A DNA stretch of 21,421 bases from a virus. The stretch covers positions 1 through 21,421 of IMG/VR virus record IMGVR_UViG_3300042560_000559, one strand, 5' to 3'. The notes beneath the pieces are model-generated. The model saw nothing but the letters and a program-made list of their open reading frames with translations. It was not told where the DNA came from and did no database searches. Both the position numbers and the translations under genes were made by a program. Shown here piece by piece: positions 4,209 through 17,780 of the stretch. Each line of letters begins with the position of its first letter. Position 1 is the stretch's first letter.

Positions 4209-4807
4209 AGGGCTTCAACCGCTGAGAATTGCAGGGTGATGTTCGACGTTCGATCCCCGGTCCAGACTACGGAATCTTCCACCAGCCGCATGACGCATTT
4301 GGGGTTTGTGACCGTCACGCCAGCATTGTTCGCCGGAGATTCGCGCAAGGCAGGCTCAATCGTCAGAGATACCTCGCCTGAGCCGTTGGCCGTGGCGTCT
4401 TCCACCACAAGATAGAGGTAATTGCCAACCTGGATATAGGTGCCCCGGAGAATGGTCCCCAATGCGGAGATGCCGTCAACCGCCAGCGCGTTGCCCGTCT
4501 GCGATCCGCCATTGACTGCAATGGTGCCGGTAGCCGTGCCCAGAAGCGTCTTTTGGTCGGGGTCAAACCCATAGAACGTGCCGTAGCGGCCTCGCAGGGA
4601 AATGAGAAACGCGCGCCACTGTGCCGCCACGGACGGGCGCATGGGCGGCAGGACATAGCTGCCCACCCACCGCGCCCCCGCGCGTTCAAGCACCTGCTCA
4701 ACGCGGTTTAGGGGCGACGTGAATACGGTGGTGTTGGCCTCAAGGCCGAAGGTGGAGGACACAAAGCCGGGCGTTGTGGGCATCGTGACGGGGTAGGAAA
4801 TGGCCAT
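4205..4807 (-). CDS. Probable distal tail protein
   Basis: This 200-residue protein begins MAISYPVTMPTTPGFVSSTF. It contains the pattern ARWVGSYVLPPMRPSVAAQWRAFLISLRGRYGTFYGFDP (split, about 45-83), which is typical of phage proteins located between tape measure and hub. Position equals the distal tail protein slot of GTAs, but I do not see the canonical DUF2460 sequence, so the call relies on position and general pattern. The C-terminal half is beta-rich with DSVVWTGDRTSNITLQFSAV. ATG 4807 is part of TAATG. Its stop overlaps the next start as GTGA. Confidence 0.7.
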   Translation of the reverse strand: MAISYPVTMPTTPGFVSSTFGLEANTTVFTSPLNRVEQVLERAGARWVGSYVLPPMRPSVAAQWRAFLISLRGRYGTFYGFDPDQKTLLGTATGTIAVNGGSQTGNALAVDGISALGTILRGTYIQVGNYLYLVVEDATANGSGEVSLTIEPALRESPANNAGVTVTNPKCVMRLVEDSVVWTGDRTSNITLQFSAVEAL

Positions 4808-6516
4808 TAGCGGCCACCCAGGAAGGCGGGCTCGCGGGCGTTGCGGGAGCGCACGGTGTTGACCGCCATGGCGACGGCTTCGCGCTTGTTGCGGTCTAGC
4901 ATCGCTTGTAGACGCGGCAGCACGGACGGATCAGCGCCACGGGCGTCAATGTTGTATGTGACGGAAGCACCACCACCCATGCGAGACATGGGCACAATCG
5001 TACCTGATCCTCCGGGGTTGAAGACCTCGGGGCCGCGTTCGCCAACCAGAGTGGGGCCGGAGATCGTGCCGCCGCCTGCCTTGCCGAAGTTGAACAGGTT
5101 GCCCAACAGGCTTGTGCCAAAGTTCGCCAGCTTTTCCGTGACCGTCTTCCGCACCATAATGCGTATCAGGTCTTGGGCCAGCCCTTGCAGCACTTCGGAC
5201 AGTTTCTTGCCCGACACCACCGCATCTTCAAACGCAGACGTGAAGGTCAGTCCCAACTCGCGAGCGGCATCGGACGCCGCGCGGGCGTTTTCCTCTGCCA
5301 CCTTGGCGTTTGCTTCGGCCAGGTTCTGCACACCTTCGGCCACAGCGTTCATTTCCGCCGTCATGCGGTCGCGGTAAGCCTTTTCTGCATCCGCGATGGC
5401 AATGCCAGACGCGATAACCGCATCCGTATACGCCTGACGGTTGGCCAGCATCGCCTCGGTTTTGCGTTCGTCGATTTCCATAAGGCGGTCAGATAGGGCC
5501 GCCTCGCGCTTCTCAAAGTCCTTGCGGTCCTTTTCAACCTCTTCGGTTGTCTGCGGAATCGACGTAGTTCCCGTTGACGCCTTCGGCAACGGGTTTGCGT
5601 CAATACGCGCCTGAAGGTCGCGCTGCATCTTTAGCAGATACAAACGATCATCCAGGTCTTTCTTGACCTTGGGGTCAGCCGTAACAACCGGGTTATTGAA
5701 CGCATTTTGCAGGTCTGCAATTCGCTCGTTGAGCGTGCCGCCACCAAATGCCTTTCGGATACTGTCCGCTATTGAGGAAATGGCCGGGGCCGCCTTGGCA
5801 ACAATGGTCTGCGCCATCTTGCCTAGCGCCGTTTCCATCGCGGCAATCTTGTCGCTCGCCTCATCCGCTGCCGCGATCAGGTCGCTCGACAGGACCGCAC
5901 CAGCGTTCTTCGCTTCGGTGCGGAATTTCTCAAGCCCGGCAGCGCCCTGAGATAAAAGGGGAAGCAGACGCTGGCCGGACTTGCCAAACAGGTCAACAAC
6001 CACAGCCGCACGCTTGGCAGGGTCATCAATGGCTGCGAGCCGGTCGGCTATGTCGGCAATAACCGTATCGGTGTCACGGATTTTGCCTTGGGCGTCCAGA
6101 ACGCCGACACCTAGATTGCGGAAGGCTTTTACGGCGGTTGCCTCGCCTGCCGCTGCATCACCCAGCGTGCGGGTAAGCCTTGCCAAGCCTGCCTCTAACT
6201 CGCTCGATTCAACGCCCGCCTGCGCCGCAGCGAATTGATAGGATTGCAGGTTTTCGGTCGAAACGCCAAGTTGCTCGGCCAACTCCCCAATGCCGCCAGC
6301 CGCGTCCAGCGTGCGCCGGGCAAAGTCCACAGACAGCGCGACACCGGCAGCAGCCGCAACCGCACCCAAGGCCCGGAATGCCGCACCGATGGGCTTAAGG
6401 GCCCCCTCCATGCCGCGCATCGCGCGTGAGGTTTCGCCCTGCGCCTTGTTCAATTCGCGCGACAGTTCCTTAAAGTCCGCCGAAAACTGGACGATCAGTT
6501 GGTCAATGACCGCCAT
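4807..6516 (-). CDS. Tail tape measure protein
   Basis: This 569-residue protein is expected to set tail length and be ejected during infection. It opens with VIDQLIVQFSADFKELSREL and an Ala-rich hydrophobic segment (43-66). Lambda-type TMP landmarks GELAEQLGVSTENLQSYQFA (77-96) and VDLFGKSGQRLLPLL (about 170-184) follow, then a charged coiled-coil stretch (about 325-430). The end has the typical Gly-rich segment with GPTLVGERGPEVFNP and a GGASVTYNIDARG strand. At about 0.15 nm per residue, the known TMP rule suggests a short tail near 85 nm. It starts inside the chaperone frame (14-base overlap) and ends in TAATG. Confidence 0.94.
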   Translation of the reverse strand: MAVIDQLIVQFSADFKELSRELNKAQGETSRAMRGMEGALKPIGAAFRALGAVAAAAGVALSVDFARRTLDAAGGIGELAEQLGVSTENLQSYQFAAAQAGVESSELEAGLARLTRTLGDAAAGEATAVKAFRNLGVGVLDAQGKIRDTDTVIADIADRLAAIDDPAKRAAVVVDLFGKSGQRLLPLLSQGAAGLEKFRTEAKNAGAVLSSDLIAAADEASDKIAAMETALGKMAQTIVAKAAPAISSIADSIRKAFGGGTLNERIADLQNAFNNPVVTADPKVKKDLDDRLYLLKMQRDLQARIDANPLPKASTGTTSIPQTTEEVEKDRKDFEKREAALSDRLMEIDERKTEAMLANRQAYTDAVIASGIAIADAEKAYRDRMTAEMNAVAEGVQNLAEANAKVAEENARAASDAARELGLTFTSAFEDAVVSGKKLSEVLQGLAQDLIRIMVRKTVTEKLANFGTSLLGNLFNFGKAGGGTISGPTLVGERGPEVFNPGGSGTIVPMSRMGGGASVTYNIDARGADPSVLPRLQAMLDRNKREAVAMAVNTVRSRNAREPAFLGGR

Positions 6517-6673
6517 CGGGGAACCTCGTCTTTAGCTGCTCAAATTCATCACGGGACAACGGCTCAATCGCGTCTTTGTGGCCGTTCTTTTCCAGCCAGC
6601 CATCAAAGGCCGCTGACAAGTCCCACGGGGTTGACCGCCAGAATTGATCGGGCACCCATTCAAGGATGCCCAT
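6503..6673 (-). CDS. Second tail assembly chaperone, if started independently (56 aa)
   Basis: The -1 frame contains an ATG at 6673-6671 that would give 56 residues (MGILEWVPDQFWRSTPWDLS onward, ending RFPDGGH). GAGAG lies six bases upstream, a weak ribosome binding site. This start omits the PWRRYREIG segment expected at the front of the domain, so I favour production mainly as the frameshift fusion. Both routes could operate. This is an alternative reading of the same bases. Confidence 0.45.
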   Translation of the reverse strand: MGILEWVPDQFWRSTPWDLSAAFDGWLEKNGHKDAIEPLSRDEFEQLKTRFPDGGH

Positions 6674-7044
6674 GCCGATCTCTCGATAACGCCGCCACGG
6701 AATAGCGTCTACTGCGCGGCGGCTTCCTCGTTTCCCTCTGCCTTGTCTCCCGCCAGCGCATTGGTGAGAAACGACGCAATGGGCTGGGCAAGAGTGAATA
6801 TGCCCGTTTGCACAATAAGCGCCGGGAACTTGTCCGGCACCTTGCCTTCACCCGCCCGGACAGCCTCGATCACAACCGTCACAACGTCACGGATGCCGAA
6901 ATCTTGCTGCCCAAACCGACGCCACAAGGGAATGATCCCCACGCCGGTCTTTTCCTCGATAGCCGCCAGCGCCTCAAACGAAGGCCGCATGGTGTAGACA
7001 GTGCCCGCGATGGTCACGGGCACGTCGCCGCGTTGTGGGTTCAT
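6503..7044 (-). CDS. Frameshifted tail assembly chaperone fusion (180 aa, -1 product)
   Basis: This is the predicted -1 frameshift product, analogous to lambda gpGT. The first 105 codons are those of the chaperone. After the slip at 6736-6730 the -1 frame reads on through CGA GGA AGC without a stop to TGA 6505-6503, adding 75 residues. The added part contains AIPWRRYREIGMGILEWVPD, then QFWRSTPWDLSAAFDGW and DEFEQLKTRFPD, a pattern I recognise from the second chaperone family beside GTA-type chaperones. Its conserved PW start lies upstream of the first ATG in that frame, so independent initiation would truncate it. The end overlaps the tape measure start by 14 bases. Confidence 0.82.
6691..6723 (-). 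promoter_or_regulatory. Stem-loop stimulating the frameshift
   Basis: Six bases (GAGGAA) after the slippery heptamer, GCCGCCGCG (6723-6715) can pair with CGTGGCGGC (6699-6691), a nine-pair stem with one G-T. The 15-base loop contains the 0-frame TAG stop. Position and stability fit a -1 frameshift stimulator. Confidence 0.8.
6709..7044 (-). CDS. Tail assembly chaperone, GTA-type (0-frame product)
   Basis: This 111-residue protein has the layout of gene-transfer-agent-type tail assembly chaperones: a beta start (VPVTIAGTVYTMRPSFEALAAIEEKTG split between residues 8 and 34), then helices covering RDVVTVVIEAVRAGEG and ALIVQTGIFTLAQPIASFLTNAL. It would guide tail tube polymerisation around the tape measure. 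The start is ATG 7044, coupled to the tube gene (three-base gap). Near the 3' end it carries GGGAAAC with G GGA AAC phased to the frame, an upstream SD-like element and a downstream stem-loop. A fraction of ribosomes is therefore expected to shift to -1 and make a longer product. The 0-frame stop TAG is in the loop of that stem. Confidence 0.9.
   Translation of the reverse strand: MNPQRGDVPVTIAGTVYTMRPSFEALAAIEEKTGVGIIPLWRRFGQQDFGIRDVVTVVIEAVRAGEGKVPDKFPALIVQTGIFTLAQPIASFLTNALAGDKAEGNEEAAAQ
6730..6736 (-). promoter_or_regulatory. Slippery heptamer GGGAAAC for -1 frameshift
   Basis: In the chaperone frame the codons are GAG GGA AAC, so the heptamer is phased X XXY YYZ and a -1 slip re-pairs as GGG AAA. 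The phage lambda G-GT site is GGGAAAG. A GGGAG SD-like element (6751-6747) lies ten bases upstream, matching the spacing of the dnaX stimulator. Confidence 0.85.
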
Positions 7045-7047
7045 GGC

Positions 7048-7449
7048 TTATGCAATCGAAAATGTGCCGGAGGATTGAAGCGAAACGCTGTAAGTCTGTT
7101 CGCCGTTGTGCTCGCCCGTCGCCTCGAAGGATTCAACCTGGAAGCCCGAGACGATGGTATCGCCATCATCAAACACCGTCGTATATGTGCCGATGGTGCG
7201 ATCCTTCACCTGGTTGAAGAAATACTGCGTCTGGGTGCCGCCCTGAAGCACGCCCGCGCCCGTGAGGGAAAGCGAAGCCACGCCAGCGGAACCAAGTAGT
7301 TCCCGCAGGTTGTTGGGCGAATCCTTGGTGGTTACGTCCACGGTTTCGCCGTTGACGGAAAAGCCGGAAGAACGAAGACCTGCAACCGTGGTCGCAGCCG
7401 TCCCCGTTCCGATCTTGAGCAGGAAGCTCCGACCAGTTTGTGCAGGCAT
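7048..7449 (-). CDS. Major tail tube protein
   Basis: This 133-residue protein has the TP901-1-like major tail protein pattern: AQTGRSFLLKIGTG at the N-terminus, GLRSSGFSVNGETVDVTTKDS (24-44) and a C-terminal FEATGEHNGEQTYSVSLQSSG strand pair. Stacked hexamers would form the tail tube. ATG 7449 has AGGAG five bases upstream, among the best ribosome binding sites in the window and consistent with high expression. Position directly upstream of the chaperone pair is standard. Confidence 0.9.
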   Translation of the reverse strand: MPAQTGRSFLLKIGTGTAATTVAGLRSSGFSVNGETVDVTTKDSPNNLRELLGSAGVASLSLTGAGVLQGGTQTQYFFNQVKDRTIGTYTTVFDDGDTIVSGFQVESFEATGEHNGEQTYSVSLQSSGTFSIA

Positions 7450-9183: not shown

Positions 9184-9362
9184 GCCGTCCCCTTCCGCTC
9201 ATAACCCCGGACGATCCGTGTTTCTTTCGGCTCGTCCGCAAGATCGACAACCCCGGCAGCAATCAGCGGCAGCGCCCGCATTGGGGCCATATCCGCTTCG
9301 TCGCCAACCGATAGCCCGTCCTCGGCTAGTGCCGGGTCAGGCCGCAACACTTTGATTCGCAT
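9180..9362 (-). CDS. 60-residue small head-tail region protein
   Basis: I start this gene at ATG 9362. Upstream in-frame codons to 9446 are the shadow of the glycosyltransferase. The product starts MRIKVLRPDPALAEDG and contains SVGDEADM and LPLIAAGVVDLADEP, a compact arrangement seen in small proteins beside phage connector genes. Its TGA overlaps the ATG of the connector gene (ATGA at 9183-9180). A GGA sits close to the start codon (two bases away), so translation probably depends on coupling. No function is known to me. Confidence 0.7.
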   Translation of the reverse strand: MRIKVLRPDPALAEDGLSVGDEADMAPMRALPLIAAGVVDLADEPKETRIVRGYERKGTA

Positions 9363-10725
9363 GTTCCAGGATCGCAAGAATCGCCTGAATGTAATCTGCC
9401 GGTGGAACAGCAGCCGCACAGGCCGCCGCGCCGGTTTCATTGTCAATCGGGCACGTCCCGGCTTCCTTGTGGTGCAGCCGGTGGCACGGGTGACAGGGCA
9501 CCTGTGGGATCAGCGCAACCGCGTTTTTCCAATCATCCGTCAGGTTCGACGGGGCCGAATGACTTAGCAGGCAAACCTTCGGCACGTCTTCCATGCTCAC
9601 GGCGTTCAGGATGCCCGTCTCGGGGCCGATCACCAGCGCGGCTTTCTGCGCCAGCGCCATGACCTGCGACATGGTTTTGTCGCCCACCACCGAATCAACC
9701 CGCTCTTTCGTGCCATGATATTCAATCACGGTGTCAAGAATAACCGACTCCAGGTCGCGCGCATCCGGGCCGCCCGCGAGCACGATCCGAAAGGACGTGT
9801 GCGCCAGTAGCTGCGTCACTACCTTGTGCATGTGCGGGTGCCACTTGTAGTAAGCGGAGCCCCGCAAAACGACCATGGCGAACGGGCCAAGGCGATCCGC
9901 TGTATCTTTTGCCCATCCCGCGTCATCCGGGGAAGGGTAGAACTTCACCCGGTATGGGCCGGGCACGCCTGCCAGCAAGTGATGGTCCGCGAGATACGAA
10001 CCGCCAAACGACCGTCGCCGCTGATCGTCCGGCCACCAATATTCATTGTGCCATGCTTGCGGGAGGGTTCGCCCCTCGACTGCGTTGGTCAGGTTGATGA
10101 CGTGATCGAAACGGCTGGAAATTGCTTTCCAGTAGGTGCTCATTTCGTCGTCAGCCACCTGATTGTCGCCAAGCGCCACAACCTCGTCAACGTGCGGATC
10201 GAAGCGCATGATTTCCGCGCCGCGATCATGCGAATAAAAGCTGATCTTGTAGCCCTGTTCTTTAAGGCCCGGCAGCACGGACGACGCCATGATGGCATCC
10301 CCGAACGCGCCAGACCGGAACACCAGGCACCGCTTCGCCTCACCCTTGCCCCATGGCACGTAATGCCATGCGCCAAGATCGCGGTGAATGACGATGAAGG
10401 CGTGGCCCTCAATCAGTGCATCCTCTACGCAGCGCCAGCCGGGAGCCTCAAGGGCTTGCAGTACATCCTCGCGCGTGACCCGCGCGCCCGTCGATTCGTG
10501 ATACCGAACGTCAGGTATCCAGCAAATCAGGGTGTGGCACTGGTCGCGCCAGCCCTGAAGAATCTCTTTCCACTGCGCCCCCGCCTTCAGCACCGTGGCG
10601 TCTGCGAACACCGTCTGCACGGGCCGCATACTCGCGGGAAACTCGGGGTGCGGCTCAGTGGGTGTCACCACTTGCTGGCGGCTCATATAGCGGAGCCCCA
10701 GCCACCAGCCTGTCGGCTTTGTCAT
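9337..10725 (-). CDS. GT9-like glycosyltransferase (heptosyltransferase family)
   Basis: This protein of up to 462 residues is not a canonical virion component. Residues ~131-460 resemble GT-B fold family 9: CLVFRSGAFGDAIMASSVLPGL (132-153) for the N-terminal nucleotide-sugar fold, MVVLRG (284-289), VLAGGPDARD (315-324), VIGPETGILNAVSMEDVP (365-382) and the Cys411-Cys414-Cys425 cluster, all in the order of LPS heptosyltransferases. Residues ~1-125 are an extra domain. The substrate is unknown; virion proteins or host surface glycan are possible. ATG 10725 has no Shine-Dalgarno sequence because a T-run precedes it. ATG 10686 (residue 14), after GGGG at nine bases, may be the true start. The 3' end overlaps the next gene by 26 bases. 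Confidence 0.82.
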   Translation of the reverse strand: MTKPTGWWLGLRYMSRQQVVTPTEPHPEFPASMRPVQTVFADATVLKAGAQWKEILQGWRDQCHTLICWIPDVRYHESTGARVTREDVLQALEAPGWRCVEDALIEGHAFIVIHRDLGAWHYVPWGKGEAKRCLVFRSGAFGDAIMASSVLPGLKEQGYKISFYSHDRGAEIMRFDPHVDEVVALGDNQVADDEMSTYWKAISSRFDHVINLTNAVEGRTLPQAWHNEYWWPDDQRRRSFGGSYLADHHLLAGVPGPYRVKFYPSPDDAGWAKDTADRLGPFAMVVLRGSAYYKWHPHMHKVVTQLLAHTSFRIVLAGGPDARDLESVILDTVIEYHGTKERVDSVVGDKTMSQVMALAQKAALVIGPETGILNAVSMEDVPKVCLLSHSAPSNLTDDWKNAVALIPQVPCHPCHRLHHKEAGTCPIDNETGAAACAAAVPPADYIQAILAILEHANQSVAA

Positions 10726-16611: not shown

Positions 16612-16880
16612 GCGTCCCGTCCCGTCAGATAGGCCTTGGCTTTCATCCAGGCAATCGCAGCCCTGGTGCCGATACTGGCCCCGCCCTTGCCGACGCAAAC
16701 CGCGCTGCGCGGGGCGATGATGCCGTTGCCGCATTCCCATCCGCAGGGGCGCTTGATAACCGGCTCGCCACCGTCAACCGGCGTGACCTTCACACCGCGC
16801 AGGCATTCCCCGCAGTAGTAAAGCGGCGGGCCGATCCGCTCCCAAAGCAGCTTCTCAAGGGGTGATCGGCTGTCGAGCAT
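16608..16880 (-). CDS. 90-residue protein with two cysteine pairs, function unknown
   Basis: This small protein starts at the ATG of a TAATG overlap with the previous gene (16880-16878). A longer frame reaching 17099 exists, but its extra part is only the shadow of copy B. The protein has CGEC (Cys23, Cys26) and CGWEC (Cys46, Cys50), a CxxC-x19-CxxxC arrangement that could bind a metal ion. A basic C-terminal half contains GTRAAIAWMKAKAYL. It ends with TGA overlapping the TTG start of the next gene. I do not recognise a family. Metal binding is inferred from cysteine spacing only. Confidence 0.68.
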   Translation of the reverse strand: MLDSRSPLEKLLWERIGPPLYYCGECLRGVKVTPVDGGEPVIKRPCGWECGNGIIAPRSAVCVGKGGASIGTRAAIAWMKAKAYLTGRDA

Positions 16881-17311
16881 TACGATTCCGTCACCGTCAG
16901 CGCACCCGCCGCAAACTGCGGCGTGATGCCGGACGAAACCGCCAGAGGCGAGTTGAGCGCGCCGTAGTGCCAGACCGTGCCAGCCGATCCCAGCGTGGTT
17001 CCGATGGCAACGTCCGTCAGGGTCGCGCCCGTCACCCCGCACTGCGGGAAGGTGATCGCCGCAGCGTTGGCCGTCGCACCACCCGATGCCGCGTCCCATC
17101 CGGTCGAGCGCGCGACTGCCTGACGGGCATAGTCCGTGTATGACGTTTCGTTGGTCGTCTGGTTGTTCCCGGTGCCGGGCGAGGCCGTGTAGAGGCCGAC
17201 ATAGGTGTTTGTCAGCGGCGAGGACGACGCATTGTCAGCGACGTTCGCCCATGCCGTCGCGCGGTACATGAGGTTAATGATCGAATTGCAGGTCGATGTG
17301 GACTTAGGCAT
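16880..17311 (-). CDS. Small tail-fibre-like structural protein, copy B
   Basis: This 143-residue protein is a diverged paralogue of the preceding gene. Shared landmarks in the same order are a YVGLYTASPG strand, NNQTTNETSYTDYARQAV, ITFPQC, TDVAIGT and the C-terminal TVTES. The ATG at 17311 has AAGGA six bases upstream, so this copy has its own ribosome binding site. Its TAA stop shares one base with the ATG of the next gene (TAATG at 16880). The spacer to copy A is only 31 bases. Probable virion structural component; the exact location on the particle is unknown. Confidence 0.72.
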   Translation of the reverse strand: MPKSTSTCNSIINLMYRATAWANVADNASSSPLTNTYVGLYTASPGTGNNQTTNETSYTDYARQAVARSTGWDAASGGATANAAAITFPQCGVTGATLTDVAIGTTLGSAGTVWHYGALNSPLAVSSGITPQFAAGALTVTES

Positions 17312-17342: not shown

Positions 17343-17780
17343 CTAGCTTTCCGTGACAGTTGATGCCGATTTAACAAGCGGAACAGCGCCAACCGCCATC
17401 GGCACATTAGGTTCCAGGATGCCGACATAAAGCAATTTACCAGCGCCGTTCAAAGCCGTGCCGATTCCAACGTGAGTTATGGTCTCGCCGGGCGACGACA
17501 AACACTCGGGAAAGTTAATATCAGCAGCCGGGGAAACTGCGTTTCCATTAACCGTGAAGCCTGCGCCCCGCGTTACAGCCCGCCGCGCATAGGGGTAATA
17601 AGCCGTCTCATTGGTTGTCTGGTTGCCCGCGTCACCAGGATCGGCAGTGTGGAGGCTTAGGTACAGGCTGCCCGCCACAACGCTGCCCCGAAGGCCGCCC
17701 GCATCGCCAACACCAGCAAAGTCAATATTTCTAAACACAAGATTAAGAAGCCCGGTCTGCCAAGCGTCCGTCTTACTCAT
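17343..17780 (-). CDS. Small tail-fibre-like structural protein, copy A
   Basis: This 145-residue protein belongs to the recurrent phage type with an N-terminal L-LSLHTADPG stretch (residues ~40-50), the motif GNQTTNETAYYPYARRAV (~52-69), an INFPEC strand and a C-terminal TVTES. Such proteins are commonly annotated as phage tail fibre or hypothetical structural proteins. It is paralogous to the next gene, sharing NQTTNE-Y--YAR-AV, I-FP-C, T-V-IGT and the last five residues TVTES. The ATG at 17780 overlaps the portal stop by eight bases, implying translational coupling because no good Shine-Dalgarno sequence is visible. A virion surface or receptor role is inferred from family habit, not shown here. 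Confidence 0.72.
   Translation of the reverse strand: MSKTDAWQTGLLNLVFRNIDFAGVGDAGGLRGSVVAGSLYLSLHTADPGDAGNQTTNETAYYPYARRAVTRGAGFTVNGNAVSPAADINFPECLSSPGETITHVGIGTALNGAGKLLYVGILEPNVPMAVGAVPLVKSASTVTES

Follow-up and report, generated by a model that had tools for sequence, protein, structure and literature searches.

How is the second of two tail assembly chaperone domains translated when its reading frame offers no start codon ahead of it? This question is raised by a gene pair in the IMG/VR viral record IMGVR_UViG_3300042560_000559, positions 1 to 21,421 of which were analysed (this whole stretch of 21,421 nucleotides is referred to as the window). The initial annotation had proposed that a frameshift joins both chaperone domains, and this proposal is borne out by the domain matches, the missing start, the phase and uniqueness of the slip site, the downstream hairpin and the conservation in relatives. 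Judged from the sequence, the site is very probably one of -1 programmed ribosomal frameshifting, of the type known from lambda G/GT, which would yield a protein of 111 aa and a TAC_11/TAC_6 fusion of 180 aa.

A tail chaperone domain without a start codon

The gene pair sits between the genes for the major tail protein (PF06199) and the tape measure protein (PF10145) (Table 1). The 111-aa chaperone matches PF11836 with an E value of 7.5e-14 (52 bits against a cut-off of 27.8), and the -1 frame matches PF09550 with an E value of 1.3e-12 (48.3 bits against a cut-off of 23.4). The latter frame, as had been claimed, is open from the slip to 6503, with no stop before the TGA at 6505-6503, and the predicted products are the 111-aa protein and a fusion of 105 + 75 = 180 aa. 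The ATG of the tape measure gene already falls within the last 14 nt of the -1 frame (6503-6516); therefore, among the ribosomes translating the chaperone, only the frameshifted ones would get there, and translation of the tape measure protein might be coupled to the frameshift.

Table 1. Features of the chaperone gene pair and its neighbours in the window.
Feature	Position	Strand	Description and evidence
Upstream neighbour, major tail (tube) protein	7048..7449	minus	PF06199 E 7.3e-27; TIGR02126 above cut-off
0-frame chaperone gene	6709..7044	minus	111 aa; Pfam PF11836 Phage_TAC_11 (GTA-gp10)
GGGAG, SD-like	6747..6751	minus	ten bases 5' of heptamer; doubtful as part of the signal
Slippery heptamer G GGA AAC	6730..6736	minus	sequence; the only one of its class in the window; kept in relatives
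Spacer GAGGAA, six bases	6724..6729	minus	sequence
Hairpin 5' arm GCCGCCGCG	6715..6723	minus	RNAfold; synonymous-codon null p 0.007
0-frame stop TAG	6709..6711	minus	within hairpin; sequence and junction table
Hairpin 3' arm CGTGGCGGC	6691..6699	minus	RNAfold; codes PWRR in the -1 frame
-1 frame extension after slip	6503..6730	minus	75 aa; Phage_TAC_6, PF09550
Downstream neighbour, tape measure protein	4807..6516	minus	PF10145 and PHROG tape measure families

Other features of the window can be mentioned here. A glycosyltransferase family 9 (heptosyltransferase-like) protein of 462 aa (9337-10725, minus strand) is encoded among the head genes, an unusual location. Two similar adjacent proteins (16880-17311 and 17343-17780, minus strand) have the motif NQTTNET in common; the first matches the Gp80 fibre protein family PF23140, and the pair falls within a block of about 4 kb with portal and protease genes on either side. 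Scanning the window for Rfam families and tRNAs returned no matches.

No ATG, GTG or TTG was found ahead of PWRRY in the -1 frame of the window. The first ATG of this frame (6673-6671) falls after PWRRYREIG, in agreement with the initial annotation, which had placed this conserved segment ahead of any ATG. A shortened TAC_6 protein could in principle be made alone from this ATG, which is preceded by a weak GAGAG, but it would lose PWRRYREIG, a segment that is kept in startless relatives and that starts right after the ATG in those relatives where an ATGA overlap links both genes; we consider this reading very improbable. One apparent protein spread over two frames could also reflect a mistake in sequencing or assembly, or a gene that has been disrupted. 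This explanation, whose probability we regard as negligible, is contradicted by four IMG/VR contigs at 94-99% identity and by many diverged loci from separate sources.

The four contigs, whose identity was determined in the TAC_6 frame, have the same gene arrangement and an identical junction stretch. Among three near haplotypes, to which the test of local sequence conservation is confined, 24 of 549 nt are variable and none of the 24 variable sites lies within -63 to +24 of the stop, which by our estimate would happen by chance in about 1.5% of cases for a pre-set interval of that size. Named phages gave distant matches only, and a scan of genome contigs with a single protein gave no match. 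In MW462191, the annotated start of the second part falls within the domain region, an example of how this part can be overlooked or annotated too short for want of a preceding start codon.

The slippery heptamer

Direct reading of the chaperone gene bears out the claim that GGGAAAC, at 6736-6730, is phased as G GGA AAC in the 111-codon frame, since the codons read GAG GGA AAC. In-phase XXXYYYZ motifs start at 17 places among the 6757 codons of the coding genes of the window, and the heptamer is the single in-phase case of the GGGAAAN, AAAAAAN or GGGGGAA type in these codons. The homopolymer runs at the site could also suggest that the fusion arises through slippage of RNA polymerase rather than of the ribosome. 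With three G and three A, these runs are short for slippage of the polymerase, and the codon phase and the spaced downstream hairpin are what is expected of ribosomal slippage; we consider polymerase slippage very improbable.

RNA elements around the slip site

Two RNA elements had been described around the heptamer. The first, a nine-pair stem six bases downstream, stands with regard to its pairs, one of which is G-U, and its spacing. The initial annotation had nonetheless located the 0-frame stop in the loop, and this part does not hold: the TAG is enclosed by the nine-pair stem and is itself paired in an upper stem rather than lying in an open loop. In the fold of the 45 nt at 6729-6685, the nine pairs are extended by five further pairs (AGUAG/CUAUU, with the loop ACG), with a predicted stability of -22.3 kcal/mol. 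None of 200 dinucleotide shuffles was as stable (z -3.43), and synonymous-codon shuffles gave -13.1 +/- 3.4 kcal/mol (p=0.007), under a null that takes no account of what the -1 frame encodes from the slip to the stop. A fold of 101 nt around the site presented no excess stability (z -0.57) because the surroundings dilute the hairpin.

The second element, GGGAG, is found ten bases upstream as described, but its role in what had been called a complete signal is doubtful. Its pairing with the anti-SD shows no excess over the synonymous null (z -1.09, p=0.18), and it is absent from the relatives L153, L154 and L181, all of which retain the slip site (diverged loci are given by their L numbers). 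As a conserved stimulator, the SD-like element is not supported.

Conservation and divergence among relatives

In total, 200 loci with both domains were collected from viral contigs and alphaproteobacterial genomes, forming 96 clusters at 80% identity, of which 90 encode the second domain in the -1 frame. Two main arrangements were observed: either a start overlaps the stop (ATGA, GTGA or TTGA), or a start is lacking and the stop comes after an in-phase heptamer. In either class, TAC_6 is encoded in that -1 frame. Across the 90 dereplicated clusters, in-phase XXXYYYZ motifs are present in 26 of the 47 clusters with no start versus 1 of the 21 ATG clusters (Fisher p 4e-5), and the other two phases hold only 3 such matches in the no-start clusters. 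In an upstream control of the same genes, the rate was 6 per 6300 codons, with an expected number of 0.9 (binomial p 1e-32, uncorrected for relatedness). With GGGGGAA added, a motif that joined the list after the loci had been seen, the count rises from the 26/47 of the strict list to 36/47, leaving 11/47 no-start clusters without any listed slip motif. One of these, L188, has no start and no recognised heptamer, the aligned position reading C GCA AGC, and contains a perfect ten-pair hairpin with a three-base loop formed by the stop codon TAG.

On a tree of the 90 clusters, built from both domains with a quick method and weak in its inner branches, the clade of the window comprises L005 (GGGAAAA), L189 (AAAAAAC), L153, L154 and L181 (GGGAAAC) and ten GGGGGAA lineages (L077, L190, L191, L193, L194, L196, L197 and L200-L202), of which L193 also carries an ATG. 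In this clade, the -1 frame is kept, the start codon is absent and a slip motif is present in most loci; the noncanonical G GGG GAA with its downstream hairpin is conserved across many of the diverged members. The conservation of slip site, hairpin and -1 frame that the initial annotation had proposed to look for is thus seen in most of the clade. Relatives with a proper start (ATGA or GTGA, with no heptamer), which it had regarded as evidence against a frameshift, do exist, mainly in other branches, whereas the near relatives keep the heptamer and have no start. The relative L005, at 60% identity, carries G GGA AAA and its own hairpin of other sequence. Slip and domain are 36 nt apart in the window as well as in L005 and L153, and 42 nt apart in L154, while the distance from slip to stop varies.

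Against the synonymous null, the z value of the hairpin is -2.7 in the window, -3.1 in L005, -3.4 in L075, -5.2 in L153 and -5.3 in L154, and between -2 and -5 in most GGGGGAA lineages; in L181 and L189, both of the clade of the window, the excess is insignificant. Mean values are -1.93 for the slip class (35 lineages) and -0.17 for the ATG class (19 lineages; Mann-Whitney p 1.6e-4). The hairpin starts about 5-7 bases past the slip in L005, L153, L154 and most GGGGGAA loci, and its 3' arm codes for the P-x-R-R front of TAC_6 in most loci of the clade. L005 and L153 have a stem register in common, in which two double changes were spotted by eye, and the register of the window is two bases off from theirs. 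Since registers differ among lineages, what we claim is maintenance of the hairpin, not column-by-column covariation.

The comparison of junctions also bears on whether TAC_6 could be made as a separate protein, by ribosomes that terminate at the TAG and restart at a rare non-AUG codon (GTA 6712-6710 or ATT 6703-6701) in a degenerate form of ATGA coupling. The junction GTAG of the window occupies the place of ATGA or GTGA in relatives (ATGA in the ATGA-class loci), and TAC_6 shares the -1 frame across both classes, as such an origin would have it. Nevertheless, bacteria do not use GTA or CTA as start codons, the candidate SD GAGGAA is 20 bases from the ATT, and L005 and L153, equally startless, retain GGGAAAN at the same 36-nt distance. 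Separate initiation is disfavoured because the conserved front of the domain has no start ahead of it, either in the window or in close and intermediate relatives, and we consider it very improbable.

Comparison with known frameshift systems

The -1 frameshift of the lambda tail chaperones G and GT takes place at G GGA AAG, and that of E. coli dnaX at A AAA AAG with an SD and a hairpin. Compared by layout rather than by protein homology, the window resembles lambda G/GT in its position ahead of the tape measure gene, the -1 direction, the P-site codon and the two products with a common N-terminus; it differs in its TAC_11/TAC_6 domains, the A-site codon AAC and the strong hairpin six bases downstream. 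With dnaX, whose function is unrelated, it has in common a heptamer, a predicted downstream hairpin and an SD-like element ten bases upstream, although in the window this last element is neither conserved nor above chance.

Frameshifts in tail chaperones are well established (Xu, Hendrix and Duda 2004, as cited in PMC5009743). GGGAAAC has been predicted in the tail chaperone overlap of the Caulobacter phage Colossus (PMC3556154) and of the Burkholderia phage KL1 (PMC3483164), and proposed for the haloarchaeal HCTV-1, according to its mention in the review PMC5009743. The likeness of the window to Colossus and KL1 is one of heptamer, not of protein homology, and the KL1 heptamer, unlike that of the window, directly abuts the stop. 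Since GGGAAAC has been published for these other tail chaperone frameshifts, the AAC codon, which had been put forward as noteworthy, is unremarkable. With regard to GGGGGAA, this 'fivetwo' motif of SEA-PHAGES has been found by others in roughly a thousand annotated frameshifts of tail chaperones (PRFect, PMC10885494); relatives in the clade of the window use it at the same place, while the window itself has a canonical heptamer.

RcGTA gp10/gp10.1 (PF11836, PF09550 and TIGR02216, 'rcc01693 family') has homologous domains in the same order, but the sampled GTA-like members mostly have a stop-start overlap without a heptamer. The protein of the window scores 36.6 against TIGR02216, below the cut-off of 56.1. 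The window is a viral record of IMG/VR and its terminase resembles those of ordinary siphophages.

Proposed mechanism and possible switching between two forms

Most ribosomes would read the chaperone gene to the TAG at 6711-6709 and release the 111-aa protein. A minority would be paused by the hairpin six bases downstream with GGA and AAC in the P and A sites, and both tRNAs would re-pair on GGG and AAA in a simultaneous -1 slip, after which the -1 frame would be read to 6503 to give the TAC_11/TAC_6 fusion of 180 aa. If lambda gpG/gpGT is taken as the model, coating of the tape measure protein would fall to the short form, and recruitment of the tail tube protein to the small number of fusion molecules. 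We infer the slippage, its rate and the roles of the chaperones, the roles being drawn from that analogy.

The device is already known in tailed phages; less expected is the stop-start arrangement of the same gene pair. An overlap of stop and start without a heptamer is seen in many GTA-like and prophage members, and L017, L023, L027, L029, L031, L038, L051 and others link TAC_11 and TAC_6 through an ATGA overlap, with no heptamer and still in the -1 frame. By parsimony, slip and start changed at least 11 times, a soft number because the inner branches of the tree are weak. In L182-L186, GGGAAAC is closely followed by a hairpin with an ATGA in its loop, and these loci are possibly an intermediate between the frameshift and stop-start forms. 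Whether the TAC_11/TAC_6 pair has repeatedly switched between a -1 frameshift fusion and separate translation by ATGA overlap in the same register, with L182-L186 bearing both signals, is in our view an evenly balanced proposition.

With this locus, the TAC_11/TAC_6 family gains a well-supported frameshift whose hairpin is kept while its sequence changes. If the switching is true, the covalent fusion, with its fixed low ratio, would be replaceable, and the family would show the stepwise gain or loss of a recoding signal. The presence of both forms in one family makes it testable whether tail assembly requires the fusion itself or just both domains.
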